The notes beneath the pieces are model-generated. The model ran no database searches. It was not told the DNA's origin and saw only the letters and a program-made list of their open reading frames with translations. From NCBI RefSeq assembly GCF_035751725.1, contig NZ_CP142104.1, positions 4,402,001 through 4,466,000 on the forward strand: a stretch of 64,000 nt of DNA, given 5' to 3'. Source of the stretch: Pseudomonas frederiksbergensis (GTDB lineage: Bacteria; Pseudomonadota; Gammaproteobacteria; Pseudomonadales; Pseudomonadaceae). The stretch's first letter is position 1; every line of letters begins with the position of its first letter. Shown here one piece after another: positions 25,315 through 53,015 of this stretch. Both the position numbers and the translations under genes were made by a program.

Positions 25315-26427
25315 ATGAATCTGCACTTCGAAGAACTCACCGGCATCAATGGCGCGCGCCTGGGCGTCGCCACCCTGGACGCCGAAAAATCCCTGAATGC
25401 CTTGTCCCTGCCAATGATCAACGCCCTGCGCGATCGTCTTGACGCTTGGGCCAAAGAACCGCAAATAGTCTGCGTGCTGCTACGTGGCAACGGCGCCAAA
25501 GCGTTTTGTGCCGGCGGCGAGGTCCGCAGCCTGGTGGAAGCCTGCCGCGCCCACCCTGGCGAGGTGCCGCCGCTGGCCGCACAATTTTTCGCCGCCGAAT
25601 ATCGCTTGGACTTCAACCTCCATACTTACCCCAAGCCCCTGCTGTGCTGGGGCCACGGCTACGTGCTCGGGGGCGGCATGGGGTTGCTGCAAGGCGCGAG
25701 CACGCGAATCGTCACGCCGAGCAGTCGCCTGGCGATGCCGGAAATCAGTATCGGCTTGTATCCGGATGTCGGCGCCAGTTGGTTCCTGTCGCGCCTGCCA
25801 GGCAAGCTTGGCCTGTTTCTCGGCCTGACCGGTGCCCACATGAACGCGCGCGACGCCATCGACCTGGGCCTGGCCGATCGGTTTCTACTCGATGAGCAGC
25901 AGGACGACCTGATCGAGGGCTTGTTGCAACTCAACTGGCAGGAACAGACCGAGATGCAACTCAACAGTCTGCTCAAGGCCTTGCAGCAAGAAGCGCTGGC
26001 CCAGTTGCCCGAAGCCCAGTGGTTGCCCCGTCGGCAGAAAATCGACGAATGGCTGGACGTCAGCGACGTCCGTTGCGCTTGGAAGGCCCTCGGTTTGTTG
26101 GTGGACCATCCGGACCCGCTGATCGCCCGGGCAGCCAGGACCATGACCGAGGGCTCGCCGTTGACGGCGCACCTGGTCTGGGAGCAGATCAGCCGGGCGC
26201 GGCATTTGTCGCTGGCCGGCGTGTTCCGCATGGAATACACCCTGAGCCTGAACTGCTGCCGCCATCCGGAATTCAGCGAAGGGGTGCGGGCGCGATTGAT
26301 CGACAAGGATCACAAACCGCGCTGGCACTGGCCGGACATCAACCATGTACCGGAAGCAGCAGTCGAGGCGCACTTTCACAAGGCCTGGGAGGGGCGGCAT
26401 CCGTTGGCGGATTTATCCAACGAGTAA
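25315..26427 (+). CDS. enoyl-CoA hydratase/isomerase family protein (3-hydroxyisobutyryl-CoA hydrolase type)
   Basis: A 370-residue crotonase-fold protein. Its length, the oxyanion-hole segment CAGGEVRSL, GHGYVLGGGMGLLQGAS, and EISIGLYPDVGASWFLSRLPG with a long C-terminal extension place it with ECH_2/HIBCH-like hydrolases rather than short (260-aa) hydratases. HIBCH hydrolyses 3-hydroxyisobutyryl-CoA in valine degradation; the true substrate here is unproven because no valine genes are adjacent. The ATG at 25315 follows GAGGTCACG. Divergent from ung. Confidence 0.8.
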   Translation: MNLHFEELTGINGARLGVATLDAEKSLNALSLPMINALRDRLDAWAKEPQIVCVLLRGNGAKAFCAGGEVRSLVEACRAHPGEVPPLAAQFFAAEYRLDFNLHTYPKPLLCWGHGYVLGGGMGLLQGASTRIVTPSSRLAMPEISIGLYPDVGASWFLSRLPGKLGLFLGLTGAHMNARDAIDLGLADRFLLDEQQDDLIEGLLQLNWQEQTEMQLNSLLKALQQEALAQLPEAQWLPRRQKIDEWLDVSDVRCAWKALGLLVDHPDPLIARAARTMTEGSPLTAHLVWEQISRARHLSLAGVFRMEYTLSLNCCRHPEFSEGVRARLIDKDHKPRWHWPDINHVPEAAVEAHFHKAWEGRHPLADLSNE

Positions 26428-26436
26428 ACCCCTTGG

Positions 26437-26477
26437 GCAATAAAAAAGCGGCGCTTGATGCGCCGCTTTTTTATTGC
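26437..26477. terminator. bidirectional rho-independent terminator
   Basis: Near-perfect inverted repeat: GCAATAAAAAAGCGGCGC, loop TTGAT, then the complement ending in TTTTTTATTGC. It terminates both the CoA hydrolase gene and the lipoprotein gene facing it. Confidence 0.95.
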
Positions 26478-26484
26478 ATGTCCA

Positions 26485-26880
26485 TTATCGATGGTTGCCC
26501 CGTCCATCATGACCACGTCCTCGATGATCATGTCCCCGATCACGCCCGCCCCGGCCACGCCGGTCGTCATTCCAGCCACTCCGATCGCGACCGTCCCAAC
26601 CGCCCCGGTGTGGGTAAGGCCGGTACGCCGCCCTTGGAGGTGAGTAATAGCGCGGGCCGTGCTGGTAATAACGCGGGGCCGAGTAATAACGGGGCGCCGG
26701 TTGGTAGTAGCGCGGCGCGTAATAACCCCGTGGTGCCGAATAATACCCGCCGCTGTAATAGGCCGGCCCGGGTGAGGTGTAGACCTCTGAACGGTAGTAG
26801 CTCGAGCCTCCGTCGTAGTAAGGCACGCATGCCGAAAGAGTCAGGCCAAGAAACGCAATGAGGAGCAGTCGTCGATACAT
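26485..26880 (-). CDS. tyrosine-rich small lipoprotein, hypothetical
   Basis: A 131-residue secreted lipoprotein: basic start MYRRLLLIAF, lipobox L-S-A-C (Cys about residue 17), then a low-complexity Tyr/Pro/Gly region with PRYY/SAPRYY-type repeats (about residues 25-95) and a C-terminal Arg/Gly/His/Asp-rich tail (DRRGRGGRDRGHDHRG). It looks like a disordered outer-membrane or periplasmic lipoprotein; similar proteins in pseudomonads have no assigned role. The ATG at 26880 is chosen to give the lipoprotein signal; GGAGG lies just upstream. Confidence 0.7.
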   Translation of the reverse strand: MYRRLLLIAFLGLTLSACVPYYDGGSSYYRSEVYTSPGPAYYSGGYYSAPRGYYAPRYYQPAPRYYSAPRYYQHGPRYYSPPRAAYRPYPHRGGWDGRDRSGWNDDRRGRGGRDRGHDHRGRGHDGRGNHR

Positions 26881-27189
26881 GGCGGCCTCCTGGACCGCGA
26901 ATGGGCCACAACAGCGACGCTGATGGGCGGCAGTCATCTATTGGGTGACTGACGATTAATCTGACAGTGAATTCGGAATCTGGTGCGACGCGGCAACAAC
27001 TCGAAACATGTCACTCGTCGCCCTCTTCCGGTGCGCCACAGCACCACAAACAGGCATACATCCGCCGTCGATCCTCCCTCTACAACAGCCGCCCTCTCTG
27101 GCACGGGCCTTCGCCCGAATTGGCACGGCTCTCGCTTTACAAACTCCGTGCAGGAGTCATCACAGGTTCGCGGCACCACAATTTGCAAT
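26881..27189. other. intergenic region upstream of the guanidine operon
   Basis: No credible gene is seen. The region holds the promoter of the lipoprotein gene (leftward) and, to the right, the promoter of the riboswitch-led operon. I could not pick out -35/-10 elements with confidence. Confidence 0.5.
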
Positions 27190-27292
27190 GGCTGACTAGG
27201 GTTCCGGCTCGCCTCTGGCGAGTGGCTGGTCCGAGAGTTGGCGACCTCCAGTTGAGGTTACACGGCGGGACAAAAGCCCGGGAGACAAGCCA
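27189..27292 (+). ncRNA. guanidine-I riboswitch (ykkC/yxkD aptamer)
   Basis: The conserved core of the class I guanidine aptamer is read directly: CTAGGGTTCCGGC (27196-27208), GGTCCGAGAG (27228-27237) and ACACGGCGGGACAAAAGCCC followed by GGGAGA (27260-27285). P1 forms from TGGCT (27189-27193) with AGCCA (27288-27292). Downstream, CTCC (27313-27316) with an upstream GTT can pair with the ribosome site GGAGAAC (27336-27342), so translational control is possible; a hairpin CACCG-ttcg-CGGTG (27291-27304) overlaps the P1 3' strand. No terminator T-run is seen. It precedes an ABC importer and guanidine-degradation genes. Confidence 0.95.
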
Positions 27293-27346
27293 CCGTTCGC
27301 GGTGCCGCGTTGCTCCTGTCCGCCCTTGATCAACTGGAGAACCACC

Positions 27347-28414
27347 ATGTTCAAGCTTCGTCTGTCCGCCCTGCTCCTTGCCGCCCTCTCGGCTCTCATG
27401 AGCTTCTCGTCCGCCGCCGCGCAAAAAGACCACTTCAGTGTCTGCTGGACCATCTACGCCGGCTGGATGCCCTGGGAATACGCCGGCAGCCAAGGCATCG
27501 TCGATAAATGGGCGAAAAAATACGGCATCAAGATCGATGTCGTGCAGCTCAACGACTACGTCGAATCCATCAACCAGTACACCGCCGGTCAGTTCGACGG
27601 CTGCACCATGACCAACATGGATGCCCTGACCATTCCCGCCGCCGGTGGCGTGGACAGCACCGCGCTGATCGTCAGCGACTTCTCCAACGGAAACGACGGC
27701 ATCGTCCTCAAGGGCGACGGCAAGACAGTCGCCGATCTCAAGGGCATGGACGTCAATCTGGTGGAGTTGTCGGTGTCTCATTACCTGCTGGCGCGCGCCC
27801 TGGATTCGGTTGGCCTCGCCGAGAAAGACCTGAAAGTCGTCAACACCTCCGACGCCGATATCTCGGCCGCCTTCAACACCGACCAGGTCAAGGCCGTTAC
27901 CACCTGGAACCCGATGCTCTCGGACATCAAGGCCCAGCCGGGCGTGAGCGAGGTGTTCAACTCCGGCCAGATCCCCGGCGAGATCATGGACATGATGGTG
28001 GTCAACACCCAGACCCTGAAGGACAACCCGGCCCTGGGCAAGGCCTTGACCGGCGCCTGGTTCGAAGTGGTGGCGCTGATGAACGCCAAGAACACCGCCG
28101 CCAACGCTGCGCTGGAACACATGGCCAAAGCGTCGGGCACTGATCTCAAGGGTTTCCAGGCGCAACTGGACACCACCAAGCTGTTCGCTACGCCCCAAGA
28201 AGCGCTGGCCTTCGTCACCAGCGAACAACTGCCCGCCACCATGGGCAAGGTCGCCGAGTTTTCGTTCAAGCACGGCTTGTTGGGCGAAGGCGCCAAGGAC
28301 GCAGATGCAGTTGGCATGGCGTTCAACCGCGACGTGACCCTCGGCGACAAGGCCAACCTCAAGCTGCGCTTTGACCCGACCTACGTACAGCTGGCCGCCG
28401 ACGCCAAGCTGTAG
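27347..28414 (+). CDS. ABC transporter substrate-binding protein, probable guanidine receptor
   Basis: A 355-residue periplasmic binding protein of the NrtA/SsuA/TauA class. Signal peptide about residues 1-25 (SFSSAAAQK), then FSVCWTIYAGWMPWEYAG, a Trp-rich ligand-contact segment, and GCTMTNMDALTIPAAGG. The riboswitch directly upstream and the downstream carboxylase, DUF1989 and allophanate hydrolase genes point to guanidine as ligand; homology alone would suggest urea, nitrate or sulfonate. The start is the ATG at 27347 after TGGAGAACC. First gene of the operon. Confidence 0.88.
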   Translation: MFKLRLSALLLAALSALMSFSSAAAQKDHFSVCWTIYAGWMPWEYAGSQGIVDKWAKKYGIKIDVVQLNDYVESINQYTAGQFDGCTMTNMDALTIPAAGGVDSTALIVSDFSNGNDGIVLKGDGKTVADLKGMDVNLVELSVSHYLLARALDSVGLAEKDLKVVNTSDADISAAFNTDQVKAVTTWNPMLSDIKAQPGVSEVFNSGQIPGEIMDMMVVNTQTLKDNPALGKALTGAWFEVVALMNAKNTAANAALEHMAKASGTDLKGFQAQLDTTKLFATPQEALAFVTSEQLPATMGKVAEFSFKHGLLGEGAKDADAVGMAFNRDVTLGDKANLKLRFDPTYVQLAADAKL

Positions 28415-28429
28415 ACCGGAGGACCTGGC

Positions 28430-29245
28430 ATGCGCCTGATCAACCGCTACCCGGATCGTCCCAGCCGTCTGTTGCTGGTGATCCTGCCCTTCGCGCTGGT
28501 GTTGTTCGCCTACTTCATGGGCTCGGCCGAACGGTTGACGGACAACCCCAACGACAAGCTACTGCCCAGCGCCGTACAAATGGCCGATGCGGTCAAACGC
28601 CTGGCCTTCACCGCCGATGCTCGCAGTGGCGACTACCTGCTCTGGCAGGACACCGCGTCGAGCCTGCGCCGGTTGGCGATCGGCCTGGGCATCAGCGCCC
28701 TGGCCGGTCTGTGCCTGGGCATCGCCGCCGGTACGCTCCCGCTGTTTGGCACGCCGCTGTCGCCGTTGCTCACCGTGGTGTCGATGGTGCCGCCACTGGC
28801 GATCCTGCCGATCCTGTTCATCGTCTTCGGCCTGGGAGAGTTGTCCAAGGTGATGCTCATCGTGATCGGCATCACGCCATGCCTGGCGCGGGATCTGGAA
28901 CAACGCGCCCGGGAAATTCCCCGTGAGCTGCTGATCAAGGCCCAGACCCTCGGCGCATCGACCTGGACCCTGATCCTGCGCGTGGTACTGCCGCAACTGC
29001 TGCCACGCTTGCTGATTTCCCTACGGCTGATGCTGGGTTCGGCCTGGCTGTTTCTGATCGCCGCCGAAGCCATCGCCTCCACCGATGGGCTGGGCTATCG
29101 GATTTTCCTCGTGCGCCGTTACCTGGCGATGGACGTGATCCTGCCGTACGTGGTGTGGATCACCCTGCTCGCCTGGCTGATGGATTGGGGCCTCAGGTAC
29201 CTGACCCGCCGAGCGTTCCCTTGGTACGAGGGGGCTAAAGCATGA
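28430..29245 (+). CDS. ABC transporter permease, probable guanidine importer
   Basis: A 271-residue inner-membrane permease of the SsuC/TauC type with about six transmembrane segments. The EAA-type coupling loop appears as IPRELLIKAQTLGASTWTLILRV (about residues 163-185). The substrate is inferred from the operon. It begins 15 bp after the binding protein and overlaps the ATPase gene by 4 nt (ATGA), so the subunits are translationally coupled. Confidence 0.9.
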   Translation: MRLINRYPDRPSRLLLVILPFALVLFAYFMGSAERLTDNPNDKLLPSAVQMADAVKRLAFTADARSGDYLLWQDTASSLRRLAIGLGISALAGLCLGIAAGTLPLFGTPLSPLLTVVSMVPPLAILPILFIVFGLGELSKVMLIVIGITPCLARDLEQRAREIPRELLIKAQTLGASTWTLILRVVLPQLLPRLLISLRLMLGSAWLFLIAAEAIASTDGLGYRIFLVRRYLAMDVILPYVVWITLLAWLMDWGLRYLTRRAFPWYEGAKA

Positions 29246-30030
29246 GCTTCATTACTGTGAACAATGTCTGGCAACAGTATGCCGACCAAGTCGTGCTGGA
29301 ACGCTTGAACCTGAGCGTCGCCGAGGGTGAGTTCTGCACCTTGGTGGGCGCGTCGGGTTGCGGCAAGTCGACCTTCCTGCGCTTGCTGCTGGGCCAGGAA
29401 CGCGCCAGTCGCGGACAGATCCTGCTGGACGGCGAACCCTTGGCGGGCGAGCCGGACGCCAGCCGGGGCGTGGTGTTCCAGCGTTATTCGGTGTTCCCGC
29501 ACCTGACGGTACTGGACAACGTGGCCCTGGGCCTGGAGTTGCCGCGCTCGCCGTTGCTGGGGCGTTTGTTCGGCAGTGCCAAGCGCCAGGCTCGCCAAGA
29601 GGCTGCGCTACTGTTGGACAAGGTCGGCCTCGGCCACGCGCTGGACAAATACCCGGCGCAGCTCTCCGGCGGCATGCAACAGCGACTGGCGATCGCCCAG
29701 GCCCTGATCATGAAGCCCCGAGTCCTACTGCTGGACGAGCCCTTCGGCGCCCTCGACCCGGGCATCCGCAAAGACATGCATGCCTTGCTGCTGGCGCTGT
29801 GGCGCGAGACCCAACTGACGGTGTTCATGGTCACCCACGACCTGTCCGAGGGCTTCAGCCTCGGCACGCGCCTGCTGGTGTTCGACAAGGTCCGCGTCGA
29901 TCCACACGCCCCCGGCGCCTATGGCGCACGCATCACCTACGACATTCCATTGAACAGCGACCGCCGCACCGCCCGTGCCGCCGTCCACGCCCTGCCCGCC
30001 GAACTGGCCGGCACGTTGCGTATCGCTTGA
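29242..30030 (+). CDS. ABC transporter ATPase, probable guanidine importer
   Basis: A 262-residue nucleotide-binding subunit of the NrtD/SsuB type. Walker A GASGCGKST (about residues 38-46), Q-loop VVFQRYSVFP, signature LSGGMQQR, Walker B VLLLDEPFGALD and the switch His (MVTHDLSEG) are all intact. It powers the importer formed with the two preceding genes. The next gene begins 13 bp downstream after an AAGGAG site. Confidence 0.93.
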   Translation: MSFITVNNVWQQYADQVVLERLNLSVAEGEFCTLVGASGCGKSTFLRLLLGQERASRGQILLDGEPLAGEPDASRGVVFQRYSVFPHLTVLDNVALGLELPRSPLLGRLFGSAKRQARQEAALLLDKVGLGHALDKYPAQLSGGMQQRLAIAQALIMKPRVLLLDEPFGALDPGIRKDMHALLLALWRETQLTVFMVTHDLSEGFSLGTRLLVFDKVRVDPHAPGAYGARITYDIPLNSDRRTARAAVHALPAELAGTLRIA

Positions 30031-30043
30031 AAGGAGATTTTCC

Positions 30044-30769
30044 ATGACCGATTCGATCCAGTTGTTTCCCCCCTTCGCCGAAGAACTGCTGCCCGGTGGC
30101 GGCCACCGCTCATTCGTGCTCAAGCGCGGCCAACTGCTGCGCCTGACCGATCTGCGCGGCGGCGCCAACGTGAGCCTGACGCTGCTCAACGCCAACGAAA
30201 AAACCGAACGCCTGAACCTGCCGGACAGCCTCAAGTGCCAACACACCGCCAAGCTCACCGCCGGCCATTGCCTGTACTCGGACATGGGCCGGGTACTCGC
30301 TGCAATCACCGCTGACACCTGTGGTTGGAGCGACAGTTTTGGCGGTGTGCTCTGCGCCGAGGAAGTCGCTGAAAAGTATGGTCAGGGCCGCTATCAGGAA
30401 CTGCGCAACGGTTTCTTCCGCAACGGCACCGACAACCTGCTGGTGGAACTGGGCAAATGGGGGCTGGGCCTGTCCGACCTACTCATGACCCTCAACTTGT
30501 TCAGCCGTGTCGACGTCGACGAAGCCGGCCACTTTAACTTTGTCGAAGGCAATTCCGAGGCCGGCGACTACATCGAGCTGTACGCGCCGATGGATACCTT
30601 GGTGGTGCTGACCGCGCTGCAGCACCCGATGGACCCGAATCCGCAATACGCCCCGCAACCGCTCAAGCTCAGTTGGATGAACGCCAACCCCAGCGTCGCC
30701 GAACATTGCCGCCAATCGCGCCCGGAAAACCAGCGCGGCTTCATCAACACCGACCGCCTGTTCGCCTGA
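30044..30769 (+). CDS. DUF1989 protein (urea carboxylase-associated), probable carboxyguanidine deiminase subunit
   Basis: A 241-residue protein of the DUF1989/UcaP family. Recognisable family features are an N-terminal beta-rich core ([17 protein letters not shown]), the metal-ligand-rich stretch [14 protein letters not shown], and [27 protein letters not shown]. Work on guanidine assimilation showed that two DUF1989 subunits form carboxyguanidine deiminase (CgdAB), converting carboxyguanidine to allophanate and ammonia. The riboswitch context supports that role here. The ATG at 30044 follows AAGGAG by 8 nt. Confidence 0.85.
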
Positions 30770-30780
30770 GGATCGCCGCC

Positions 30781-31422
30781 ATGTCACTTTCCATCGCCAC
30801 CGCACACAAGCAACTCGAGACCGCCGCCTACCGCGCCACGATTCCCGCCGGCGAACCTTGGCTGACCGAGGTCAAGGCCGGCCAGACCTTGCGCATCCTT
30901 GACCTGGAAGGCAACCAGGCGGTCGATACGCTGTTCTACAGCCTGGCCAATCCCAGGGAACGCTACGACGTGCAGCGCACCTTGCGTCGGCAGAACAGCG
31001 TTTACCTGGGCACCGGCAGCGTGCTGTATTCCAACCTCGGCCGACCGATGCTGACCATCGTCGAAGACACCTGCGGGCGCCACGACACCCTCGGCGGCGC
31101 CTGCGCCCAGGAAAGCAACACCGTGCGCTACGCCCTGGAGAAGCGCCACATGCACAGCTGCCGCGACAACTATCTGCGGGCCTGCGCCCACGACGGTCGG
31201 CTGGGCAAGGGCGACATCGGGCCGAACATCAACTTCTTCATGAACGTGCCGGTCACCGCCGATGGCGGCCTGACCTTTGAAGACGGGATCTCGGCGCCGG
31301 GGAAATACGTCGACCTGCGGGCCGAGATGGACGTGATCGTCCTGATCTCCAACTGCCCGCAACTGAACAACCCGTGCAATGCCTACAACCCCACGCCAGC
31401 GGAGCTTTTGATATGGGACTGA
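30781..31422 (+). CDS. DUF1989 protein, second probable carboxyguanidine deiminase subunit
   Basis: A 213-residue paralogue of the preceding protein, starting 11 bp after it. The conserved stretch [18 protein letters not shown] and the Cys/His-bearing [16 protein letters not shown] resemble metal-binding sites, and the C-terminus [19 protein letters not shown] is typical of DUF1989. It probably forms the hetero-oligomeric deiminase with its neighbour. The two have diverged enough to suggest that one subunit is catalytic and one structural; I cannot say which. Confidence 0.85.
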
Positions 31423-31490
31423 AACTCACGCGCCTGCGCCGCTGGCTGTTCGTGTTGTGCCAGAGCCGCTCGGGGCAGTGCCTCAAATAA
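31413..31490 (+). CDS. possible 25-aa basic small protein in the guanidine operon
   Basis: Begins inside the last codons of the DUF1989 gene (ATGGGACTGA overlap) with GGAG 8 nt upstream. It encodes a basic, amphipathic peptide starting [16 protein letters not shown] with a Cys-containing tail. The start/stop overlap and good ribosome site make translation plausible. It ends 65 nt before the guanidine-II riboswitch. I do not recognise it; it may be a translated leader that influences folding or Rho access before the riboswitch. Confidence 0.35.
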
Positions 31491-31552
31491 ATGCATGAAC
31501 GCCACCGGCACAGGCTCTGCCACAGAGGTTGTGTGGTGCTTGGAGGTTTGCC

Positions 31553-31639
31553 GCCGGGGACGACCCCGTTGGCCATCGAAAACTGCGGGACGGCCCGCAT
31601 CCCAGTTCAGGCGGCACGCATGCCTGAGGGGGCAATGCC
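31553..31639 (+). ncRNA. guanidine-II riboswitch (mini-ykkC), internal to the operon
   Basis: Two hairpins with the class-defining ACGR loops: CGGGG-ACGA-CCCCG (31555-31568) and TGCGGG-ACGG-CCCGCA (31584-31599), joined by a 15-nt linker. After them, TCAGGC (31607-31612) can pair with GCCTGA (31622-31627) immediately before the GGGGG ribosome site (31628-31632) of the carboxylase gene, a plausible expression platform. Guanidine-II riboswitches bind two guanidinium ions, one per loop, and usually expose the ribosome site. The position in front of the carboxylase fits exactly. Confidence 0.9.
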
Positions 31640-35212
<3,573 letters not shown>

Positions 35213-35234
35213 ACTCAATCAAAGGATTAACGCG

Positions 35235-37013
35235 ATGAAAATCTCTCTGCGCCTGGACAACCTGCGCGACGCCTACCGCAAAGGCGAAACGACACCGCGC
35301 CGGTTGCTGCTGGCCCTGCGGGAAAAGGCCGCCGCACTCGACCCGGACTATCACCTGTTCATCCATCTGCTGTCCCCCGAGGAACTGGAGCCCTATCTAA
35401 CGGCATTGGAAAGCCGCGACCTGGAGAGCCTGCCGTTGTACGGCGTGCCGTTCGCCATCAAGGACAACATCGACCTGGCCGGCATTCCCACCACCGCCGC
35501 CTGCCCGGCGTTTGCCTACGTGCCGCAATGTTCGGCCACGGTGGTCGAGCAGTTGTTGGCACTGGGCGCCATTCCCTTGGGCAAGACCAACCTCGACCAA
35601 TTCGCCACCGGGCTCAACGGCACCCGTACCCCTTACGGTGCCTGTCGCAACAGCGTGTTGGCGGACTATCCGGCCGGTGGTTCGAGTGCCGGCTCGCCGC
35701 TGGCGGTGGCCCTGGGCGTGGCAAGTTTTGCGCTGGGCACCGACACCGCAGGCTCAGGCCGGGTGCCTGCGGCGCTGAACAACCTGGTCGGCCTGAAGGC
35801 CACCAAAGGCTTGATCTCCACCGCAGGCGTGGTGCCGGCTTGCCGGACGCTGGATTGCGTGACCACATTCACTGCGACGGCGCGCGAAGCCAGCCAACTG
35901 TTGGCATTGACCGCGCGCCTCGACCCGCGCGACGAATACAGCCGCCGCAATCCGCAATGGAACGACAGCTCGGCGTTCGGCGCGCCCCGACGCTTTCGCT
36001 TCGGCGTGCCTCGTCGGCAAGACCTGGAATTTTTCGGTTGCGACGAAGGCCCACGGTTGTTCCGCGACACCATCGAGCGCCTCGAACGCCTGGGCGGCGA
36101 AGCCGTCGAGCTGGATTTGTCGCCCTTCCTCGAAGCCGCGCGCTTGCTCTACGAGGGGCCTTGGGTTGCCGAGCGCTACAGCGTCGCCGGGGAGTTGATC
36201 GAGCGCGACGCCAATGCGGTACTGCCGGTGATCCGCGCCGTATTGGCGAAAGCGTCTACCGTGACCGGCGTGGATACCTTTCGCGCCCAGTACCGTTTGC
36301 AAGCGCTCAAGGCCCAGTGCGACCGAATGATGGAAACACTCGATTGCGTGCTCACCCCGACCATTGGACGCCCGGTGACCCTCGCCGAAATCGCGGCCGA
36401 ACCACTGCTGCGCAATGCGGAACTGGGTTACTACACCAACTTCATGAACCTGCTGGACTACGCCGCCGTCGCCGTGCCCAGCGCCTTCATGGCCAACGGT
36501 TTGCCTTGGGGCGTGACGCTGTTCGGCCGAGCCTTCACCGATCAGTACCTGCTGGGTGTGGCGGACGCCTTGCAGCGCCAACAACTGCCTGACTTACCGA
36601 CACCCGCCCATCCGGCCCGCCATGATCGGGCACGGCTGGTGGTGTGCGGCGCGCACCTGGAGGGGTTGGCATTGAACTGGCAACTCAAGCAACGCGGCGC
36701 CCGGCTGATCGAGGCGACCCATAGCTCGCCGGATTACCGCCTCTATGCCTTGGCCGGCGGCCCACCACTGCGCCCCGGCATGCTGCGCGTTGGCGAGGGG
36801 GGCGTGGCGATCGAAGTTGAAGTCTGGGAACTGCCAAGCAGCGAATTGGGCTCGTTCCTGACCGGTATTCCCGCACCGCTTGGGTTGGGCAAGGTGCAAC
36901 TGGCCGACGGGCGCTGGGAAAGCGGCTTCATCTGCGAGCCGTATGGCCTGGACGGCGCAGAAGACATCAGCCATTTAGGCGGGTGGCGGGCCTACCTGAC
37001 GACCCGTCAGTGA
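35235..37013 (+). CDS. atzF: allophanate hydrolase
   Basis: A 592-residue amidase-signature enzyme hydrolysing allophanate to two ammonia and two CO2. The Ser-cisSer-Lys triad is visible: Lys76 (FAIKDNID), the Ser150/151 region (AGGSSAGS) and nucleophile Ser174 (GTDTAGSG). The C-terminal domain (about residues 450-592, LFGRAFTDQYL to the end) is the AtzF-type extension that completes decarboxylation, so the protein is full length. The ATG at 35235 gives the family start; the frame upstream overlaps the carboxylase end and is not coding. Last gene of the operon. Confidence 0.94.
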   Translation: MKISLRLDNLRDAYRKGETTPRRLLLALREKAAALDPDYHLFIHLLSPEELEPYLTALESRDLESLPLYGVPFAIKDNIDLAGIPTTAACPAFAYVPQCSATVVEQLLALGAIPLGKTNLDQFATGLNGTRTPYGACRNSVLADYPAGGSSAGSPLAVALGVASFALGTDTAGSGRVPAALNNLVGLKATKGLISTAGVVPACRTLDCVTTFTATAREASQLLALTARLDPRDEYSRRNPQWNDSSAFGAPRRFRFGVPRRQDLEFFGCDEGPRLFRDTIERLERLGGEAVELDLSPFLEAARLLYEGPWVAERYSVAGELIERDANAVLPVIRAVLAKASTVTGVDTFRAQYRLQALKAQCDRMMETLDCVLTPTIGRPVTLAEIAAEPLLRNAELGYYTNFMNLLDYAAVAVPSAFMANGLPWGVTLFGRAFTDQYLLGVADALQRQQLPDLPTPAHPARHDRARLVVCGAHLEGLALNWQLKQRGARLIEATHSSPDYRLYALAGGPPLRPGMLRVGEGGVAIEVEVWELPSSELGSFLTGIPAPLGLGKVQLADGRWESGFICEPYGLDGAEDISHLGGWRAYLTTRQ

Positions 37014-37025
37014 ACAGCAATCTGC

Positions 37026-37049
37026 GGCGAGGGGACAATCCCCCTCGCC
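37026..37049. terminator. hairpin after the guanidine operon (REP-core type)
   Basis: GGCGAGGGG-acaatc-CCCCTCGCC inverted repeat 12 bp after the allophanate hydrolase stop. There is no strong T-run; it shares the GGCGAGGGG motif of dispersed pseudomonad repeats, so it may act as an mRNA 3' stabiliser as well as a weak terminator. Confidence 0.6.
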
Positions 37050-37136
37050 TACAATCATGCAAACCTGCAAATCCGAATATCTTTTCCCGCAAGGCCACTA
37101 GACTTGATTCCATCGGGTCACTCCTGGGGAATCGCC

Positions 37137-37883
37137 ATGTCGCTTCGTTCGCCGTTGCATGCCCAGCGCTCACCGGTGCTGATGCTCGCCATTTTGCTGG
37201 GTGCCGCCTTCCTGCTGACTTCGCTGTTGGCTTATTACGCCGCCAACACGTCGCTCAAGGACAACATTGTGAAGGCGTTGTACTTCAACTTGCTGATCGG
37301 CCTGCTCGTCACGGTGGCGGTGCTCGTCGTGCTTTATCGGCTGATCGCCAATTTCCAGCGCCGCATCGACGCCCAAGCCATCCTGGATGGCTTGACCGAA
37401 CTGCCCAACCGCCGGGGCTTCGACCTCCTGGCGGTGCAAGCGCTGCATGAAGCCCAGCGCGAGCCCAAGCCTTTGAGCGCGTTGCTGCTGGAAGTGGACA
37501 ATTTCAAACAACTGGATGCCAGCCACGGCCACGTCGCCAGCGACCAGTTATTGAGTGGTTTCGCTCGCGACCTGACCGACACCTTGCGGCATTCGGACAT
37601 CGTGTGTCGCTGGGGCACTGACGCCTTCGCCCTGCTACTCAAGGACACCGACGGGCAGAACGGCCAGAAGATCGCTGAGAAAATTCGCGAGCACATCGCG
37701 TTGCAGCGCTATTTTTGCAGCGGAAAGCAATTGCAGGTCACCGTCAGCATCGGCCTGACCACCTTGCAGGACGAAGACACCTTGCATAGCCTGTTGTCCC
37801 GGGCCGATCATGCGCTGCGACGTGCCCGACAGACCGGCAGCAACCGAACCTGCGTGGAAATGCCTCACTCCAGTTATGAATAA
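37137..37883 (+). CDS. membrane GGDEF-family protein with degenerate active-site motif
   Basis: A 248-residue protein with two transmembrane segments (about residues 15-33 and 48-68) and a cytoplasmic GGDEF-fold domain beginning at DGLTELPNRRGFD (about residue 85). The signature that should read GGDEF is GTDAF (CRWGTDAFALLL), and no RxxD inhibitory site is visible before it. Both the substrate-binding second Gly and the catalytic Glu are changed, so cyclase activity is unlikely; a c-di-GMP/GTP-binding or purely structural role is possible. The CWC-type gene overlaps its 3' end by 8 nt. Confidence 0.8.
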   Translation: MSLRSPLHAQRSPVLMLAILLGAAFLLTSLLAYYAANTSLKDNIVKALYFNLLIGLLVTVAVLVVLYRLIANFQRRIDAQAILDGLTELPNRRGFDLLAVQALHEAQREPKPLSALLLEVDNFKQLDASHGHVASDQLLSGFARDLTDTLRHSDIVCRWGTDAFALLLKDTDGQNGQKIAEKIREHIALQRYFCSGKQLQVTVSIGLTTLQDEDTLHSLLSRADHALRRARQTGSNRTCVEMPHSSYE

Positions 37884-52927: not shown

Positions 52928-53015
52928 TGTGGGAGCGAGCCCGCTCGCGAATCAGGCGGCGCGGGTTGTCAGGCGCACCGCGTTTCCGTGCTTCGCGAGC
53001 GGTCTCGCTCCCACA
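52928..53015. repeat. REP inverted pair (BIME)
   Basis: TGTGGGAGCGAGCCCGCTCGCGAA (written as two parts: TGTGGGAGCGAG and CCCGCTCGCGAA) at the left end is matched at the right end by TTCGCGAGCGGTCTCGCTCCCACA in inverse orientation (52992-53015). The pair forms a long stem between the DJ-1 gene and the methyltransferase gene. Confidence 0.85.

Follow-up and report, generated by a model that had tools for sequence, protein, structure and literature searches.

We analyzed a stretch of 64 kb of the Pseudomonas frederiksbergensis genome (the window; positions 4,402,001 to 4,466,000 of NZ_CP142104.1, the single 6.0 Mb contig of this assembly), which carries at 27347-37013 an operon of the guanidine assimilation type common in Pseudomonas, comprising import, carboxylation, deimination and allophanate hydrolysis, together with two riboswitch elements of different guanidine classes. 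The first gene (27347-28414; + strand, as for all features of the operon given below) encodes an ATP-binding cassette (ABC) substrate-binding protein that scores 579.9 bits against TIGR03427 (cut-off 333.9), a family named putative urea ABC transporter substrate-binding protein, the ligand here being presumably guanidine. It is followed by a TauC-like ABC permease (28430-29245), which matched no family over its cut-off, and by an ABC ATP-binding protein (29242-30030), for which none of the 25 matches listed, out of 182, passed the family cut-off. The next two genes encode carboxyguanidine deiminase subunits, one of the cgdA type (30044-30769; UAAP1, TIGR03425; 324 bits, cut-off 205.95) and one of the cgdB type (30781-31422; UAAP2, TIGR03424; 338.1 bits, cut-off 284.7), and the operon closes with the guanidine carboxylase gene gca (31640-35212; TIGR02712, named urea carboxylase; 1894.7 bits, cut-off 1303.85) and allophanate hydrolase (35235-37013; TIGR02713; 787.1 bits, cut-off 511.05). 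The carboxylase, both UAAP proteins and the allophanate hydrolase are therefore all over the curated cut-offs that define the pathway, and the assignment of guanidine instead of urea as the presumable substrate rests on the literature and on the riboswitches. The intergenic gaps are, in order, 15, -4, 13, 11, 217 and 22 nucleotides (nt), and the 217-nt gap, which precedes the carboxylase gene, holds the class II element. Among the matches listed, from which the source genome itself and its closest kin may be absent, the closest named relatives by UAAP2 were Pseudomonas thivervalensis (96%) and P. kilonensis (95%).

Two guanidine aptamers in one operon

The whole length of the window was scanned against Rfam by cmscan, and this, like all the findings reported here, is a computational result. 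The scan returned one guanidine-I (ykkC) aptamer at 27185-27286 (RF00442; 95.7 bits, with 63 as the gathering score; E value 3.9e-16; full model, model positions 1-107) and one guanidine-II (mini-ykkC) aptamer with two ACGR hairpins at 31552-31598 (RF01068; 41.1 bits against 32; E value 9.1e-5; full model), the only other matches being two tRNAs. A preliminary description of this DNA had proposed two classes of guanidine riboswitch within the operon, and the covariance models bear this out, since both families scored above cut-off over the full model. The core strings reported for class I are present, as are both class II loops (ACGA in P1, ACGG in P2). The operon was likewise described correctly, as was the location of class II in front of the carboxylase gene. 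The element boundaries given earlier were nearly right, except that the class II aptamer ends at 31598 and not at 31639. Both elements are thus confirmed as real and full-length by covariance score, and guanidine binding is predicted for each. They are 4,265 nt apart, a spacing that sets them outside the definition of a tandem riboswitch, in which adjacent aptamers share one leader. The evidence drawn from the sequence covers both predicted aptamers, the gene order and the conservation of these features.

To the same description the combination of two classes had seemed uncommon, a view refuted by our surveys and by published cases (PMC12186494, PMC12508155). In a genus sample of 199 genomes, class I was present in 111 and class II in 186. 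Class II positions were taken from the genus listing, and the 40 class-I genomes lacking a partner among the matches listed were searched again. In 108 of the 111 genomes a class II element lies up to 10 kb downstream of class I on the same strand, at 4.0-4.7 kb from the nearest class I in 103 and at 2.7-3.0 kb in five. In one of the three exceptions (G151), class I is located about 1.5 kb from a contig end and class II is on a separate 7 kb contig; in the other two (G058, G087; loci L206 and L207), a class I aptamer is retained but only fragments of the later operon genes were found behind it, as in decayed operons.

Among named loci, kept as the best 80 of 587 UAAP2 relatives and hence biased to close kin, the class I core was found in 80 of 80 and class II directly after UAAP2 (cgdB) in 79 of 80, the presence of the carboxylase not being part of this count. 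These loci include Paraburkholderia, Caballeronia, Trinickia, Brenneria and Pectobacterium. Because the class II search model had been built from Pseudomonas loci, Rfam was run on seven named loci with non-Pseudomonas titles, which revealed class I in seven and class II in six. On the genus and named-locus counts, the layout of class I plus class II is the rule for the guanidine operon. In a class-level sample of 321 genomes, class I was detected in 26; in the 25 of these other than the source genome, class II lies 3.3-5.1 kb downstream on the same strand in eight (in one of which, G392, it scores below the family cut-off), on another contig in three, on the opposite strand in one, and is missing in 13.

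The same layout has been published for three enterobacteria, where guanidine-I goes with the importer and carboxyguanidine deaminase and guanidine-II with the carboxylase and allophanate hydrolase (PMC12186494). It is also seen in Vreelandella boliviensis, which has the same riboswitch classes in the 5' untranslated region and the cgdB-gca gap and the same pathway genes; its operon differs in adding mgdH and mgdL, and its class I element is presumed to be transcriptional (PMC12508155). Tandem riboswitches resemble the present case in that a single RNA carries several aptamers that bind the same ligand, and differ from it in that here the aptamers are 4.3 kb apart and have separate genes; a review of such systems reports no tandem arrangement of guanidine-II or other guanidine classes with other riboswitches (PMC9481103).

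Genomes with additional class I copies were informative on the division between the two classes. We mapped nine stretches from eight genomes chosen for two or more class I copies, and in these eight every mapped class I heads a transporter unit, whereas the sole class II stands directly before the carboxylase gene (8/8). The units headed by class I encode a second substrate-binding protein, a permease or the main substrate-binding protein. Such a pattern agrees with each separately translated unit having a riboswitch of its own. Several regions (L095, L096 and L097; also L093, L094, L098 and L099) hold two or three class I elements and one class II, and in some of them other DNA lies between the class I-headed transporter units. 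A second kind of class I, with a different P2 (starting with TTTTCCGGCCC), was observed in four genomes (L202-L205; G054, G194, G166 and G120) elsewhere in the genome before another gene.

The leader of the first gene

Upstream of the class I aptamer we found a predicted sigma-54 (-24/-12) promoter, TTGGCACGGCTCTCGCTTT (27120-27138; score 21.5 of 23), which lies 64 nt before the aptamer; transcription is expected to begin near 27147, leaving about 38 nt of RNA upstream of the aptamer. Scoring of the 200 nt upstream of class I covered the window together with the 30 loci that had the highest class I scores among the 134 class I leaders listed from the genus sample. In all 31 loci the best sigma-54-type match reached 21.0-21.5 of 23 at 63-73 nt from the aptamer (shuffle p <= 0.005), forming a conserved island within diverged upstream DNA, with a GG-N10-GC core at near-constant distance. 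A fixed sigma-54 pattern, counted without a chance control, was present in 125 of 128 class I loci (six of the 134 had no start found and were left out). Beyond the genus, a wider set of 21 loci was scored, whose titles are mostly those of Burkholderiales and Pectobacteriaceae, and 19 of them reach at least 20; the fixed pattern occurs in 10 of 20 class-level loci. Genes for RpoN and NtrC are present in the source genome, and a repeat pattern of the NtrC type was found upstream in one of the 31 loci. A genus-wide search with a promoter-plus-core pattern (99 of 199 genomes) gave a number of matches at sites other than class I, and a large share of genomes was also matched by the reversed control pattern; this search was not used as evidence. 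In the open-access literature searched, no title or abstract opening describes a link between sigma-54, RpoN or NtrC and guanidine riboswitches, and the conserved sigma-54-type promoter, with its predicted dependence on RpoN, appears as an addition to that literature.

Between the promoter and the first gene, the aptamer itself offers a possible means of control. The P2 hairpin of the window (GACCTC-CAGTT-GAGGTT) contains, in its 5' arm and loop, a predicted anti-Shine-Dalgarno strand, CTCCAGTTGA (27246-27255), which is a perfect 10-nt complement of the Shine-Dalgarno (SD) element of the first gene, TCAACTGGAG (27330-27339). In the free ensemble this P2-SD pairing has a probability of 0.71-0.99 in the window, and imposing the aptamer, which excludes the P2-SD helix by construction, raises the openness of the SD from 0.01 to 0.50. 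We evaluated 132 of the 134 leaders, dropping one with a poor SD (L113, from G122) and one from a decayed operon (L130, from G087). An uninterrupted match of at least nine pairs, G-U allowed, was found in 94 of the 132 (83 of 132 with shuffle p <= 0.01), and in 113 of 132 the SD pairs chiefly with the P2 segment in the free ensemble. The loop bases, although unpaired within P2, change together with the SD side: the 83 rows with a 22-nt P2 show the combinations CAGTT/AACTG in 61-62, CAGTA/TACTG in 17 and AATT/AATT in one. Divergent P2 hairpins also match their own SD, over 11 nt in L164 and over 15 nt in L220, which lies outside the genus.

Several observations weigh against this interpretation. 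Much of the P2-SD match is generic CTCC:GGAG pairing, and in a swap control with 45 distinct P2 sequences the mean run was 8.6 with the own SD against 7.3 with those of other lineages, the own run being longer in 31 of 45. Shuffling of partners among the ten distinct loop combinations reached the observed value in 12 of 2000 trials. Runs fall below nine in 38 of 132 leaders, including a subclade with a TTCG loop, and outside the genus a run of at least nine was found in only two of 21 wider loci and two of 14 evaluable class-level loci, the longest match being six in 13 of the 21 loci. The free folds of both leaders are no stabler than shuffles (z -0.19 and -0.87), and by the secondary-structure model the aptamer fold is imposed at a cost of about 16 kcal/mol.

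The leader also bears on whether class I acts on transcription instead, through an intrinsic terminator or a Rho-linked stop, with class II acting on carboxylase translation. A ligand-opened intrinsic terminator is the usual class I mode, though not a criterion of the class (PMC12186494), and a transcriptional class I is presumed for V. boliviensis (PMC12508155); in some other gammaproteobacterial class I leaders the aptamer is followed by CCCGGGC and then by a run of T (for instance L210 and L219; T run in 7 of 20). Moreover, blocked translation can cause loss of the mRNA, blurring the two modes. In the window, however, a simple consensus scan of the interval from the aptamer to the start codon found nothing terminator-like, TTTT occurs in this interval in only 19 of 132 genus leaders, and the SD region is instead complementary to P2. 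We therefore regard a transcriptional class I as rather unlikely here. Strand exchange between P2 and the SD was not found for class I in those parts of the open-access literature that were searched (including PMC7266159), and it may be reported elsewhere.

Other conserved-looking features were noted by eye in the same leader. The 5' leader segment CGCGGCACC (within 27147-27184) can pair with GGTGCCGCG (within 27287-27316), located after the aptamer, and looks conserved, the candidate long-range helix joining CGCGGCACC to a post-aptamer GGTGYCGCG. A CAGGAG near the predicted 5' end can likewise pair with CTCCTG, and this too looks conserved by eye.

The class II element and the proposed control of the carboxylase

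Searches of the source genome and of the genus yielded 61 class II loci, 43 of which, the window included, precede a carboxylase start recognized by pattern and comprise 36 distinct sequences. Pairing is kept in 95.2% of the cells of these 36 sequences and in no more than 46.8% once partners are slid; changes on both sides of a pair occur in 64 cells, a value reached by none of 500 shuffles. In P1, five of eight pairs change on both sides; in P2, five of six pairs never vary, so that this hairpin carries little evidence from covariation. The low variation of P2, together with the short model, the GC-rich sequence and the P1 mismatches in the window, would fit a chance match or a decayed mini-ykkC without function, yet loops and P1 covariation are kept in the 36 distinct sequences and the element occupies the same place in 79 of 80 named loci, which makes a functionless element highly improbable.

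The SD of the carboxylase gene, GAGGGGG (31626-31632), is predicted to pair with the segment just upstream: in the window its first six bases are unpaired with a mean of 0.10, and they are paired to the stretch between P2 and the SD with 0.74. Over the 43 loci the predicted partner lies between P2 and the SD in 16, in the SD itself or downstream in 14, upstream in 12 and in the linker in one. The SD is thus mostly paired in the predictions, with a partner that varies among loci and that in the window lies outside P1 and P2. A common class II OFF fold was not found in the 43 loci, a result that counts against the model favored below, and because the SD partners differ we propose no switching fold for this element. 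In one fold the P1-P2 linker paired with codons 2-3; by eye, this pairing is not maintained across the sequences compared. The translational mode assumed here for class II is taken from the literature, in which the class acts by release of the SD or ribosome site (PMC9300104, PMC5486947, PMC9561414). The guanidine-II element of a multidrug transporter gene in P. aeruginosa is of the same class and has this mode; it differs in being a stand-alone leader and in its proposed P0 helix (PMC9561414).

Some loci carry further sequences around class II. In L085, more than 100 extra bases lie between the aptamer and the carboxylase start and could change its control. A sequence of the GCTCGCTCCCACA type, which we take to be REP-like, occurs in 16 of 43 loci in the last 100 nt upstream of class II; it is absent before class II in the window, where one copy lies at 52940 on the - strand. 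Between cgdB and class II, such a sequence could affect RNA stability or coupling. The source genome also has a second class II element (G000:C1:1609065-1609114; L102:2732-3115), which precedes a sugE-type SMR exporter gene, and it therefore has sensors for both guanidine efflux and guanidine use.

The length of the 217-nt gap, of which 129 nt lie before the class II aptamer, leaves room for an internal promoter, in which case class II would belong to a second transcript and the two sensors would not share one RNA. The best sigma-54-like score in this gap is 19.5 of 23. Nevertheless, none of the 43 class II loci reaches 21 in the 200 nt before the aptamer, so that an internal sigma-54 promoter was not supported, no sigma-70-like site was found in 26400-37600, and the sequence leading up to class II shows no conservation by eye; a second transcript is accordingly quite improbable.

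A further proposal, that of the preliminary description, is that the two classes set separate guanidine thresholds, one for uptake and one for the ATP-costly carboxylase. The two classes are built differently and their published affinities differ as well, in-line probing in V. boliviensis having given apparent dissociation constants of 44 ± 9 µM for class I and 93 ± 6 µM for class II (PMC12508155), and the class II element of the P. aeruginosa transporter gene has a half-response at 2.2 mM in a translation assay (PMC9561414). Against this, the sole affinity pair found for one operon is only about two-fold apart, and the placing of class II just behind cgdB, seen in 79 of 80 named loci, agrees with a fixed division of labor without demonstrating thresholds. 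A clearer difference between the classes in V. boliviensis than affinity is the binding of methylguanidine, which class II also binds and class I does not in the tested range (PMC12508155). We consider separate thresholds unlikely, though they are compatible with two translational switches on one transcript, and both could hold.

The model that we favor, and that we judge probable overall, combines a sigma-54 transcript, a class I element that acts on translation through P2 strand exchange and a class II element that serves as a translational switch of its own for the carboxylase. The sigma-54 promoter, presumably active under nitrogen limitation, would start the transcript about 38 nt before class I. 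Without guanidine, the 5' arm and loop of P2 would pair with the SD region of the substrate-binding-protein gene, keeping translation of this first gene and of its closely coupled neighbors low; guanidine would stabilize the aptamer, so that P2 closes on itself and the ribosome site becomes free. Since the carboxylase gene begins 217 nt past the last coupled gene, it would need its own switch, which the kissing hairpins of class II before its start codon would provide. Class I would thus act as the promoter-proximal sensor and class II as the internal one, each reading guanidine for its own translation unit on a shared transcript. A second sensor is possibly needed because class I looks translational, and its effect may stop short of a gene that lies 217 nt past the coupled ones.

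In its most specific form, the proposal makes the Pseudomonas class I aptamer its own expression platform, in which the 5' arm and loop of P2 act as an anti-SD strand that swaps between the 3' arm of P2 and the ribosome site, whose sequence the 3' arm resembles. A sigma-54 transcript would carry class I at its 5' end and class II internally, ahead of the carboxylase gene, and the pathway would be gated jointly by nitrogen state and by two guanidine checks at the level of translation; to this proposal as a whole we give about even odds. The original observation is correct and the arrangement was already known, so that the additions are the conserved sigma-54-type promoter and the class I strand-exchange model, both computational; the account of V. 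boliviensis, in the part available, mentions neither a sigma-54 promoter nor P2-SD pairing (PMC12508155). If the model is true, class I in Pseudomonas would act on translation, in contrast to the terminator usually pictured for this class, and the operon would answer to nitrogen state as well as to guanidine.

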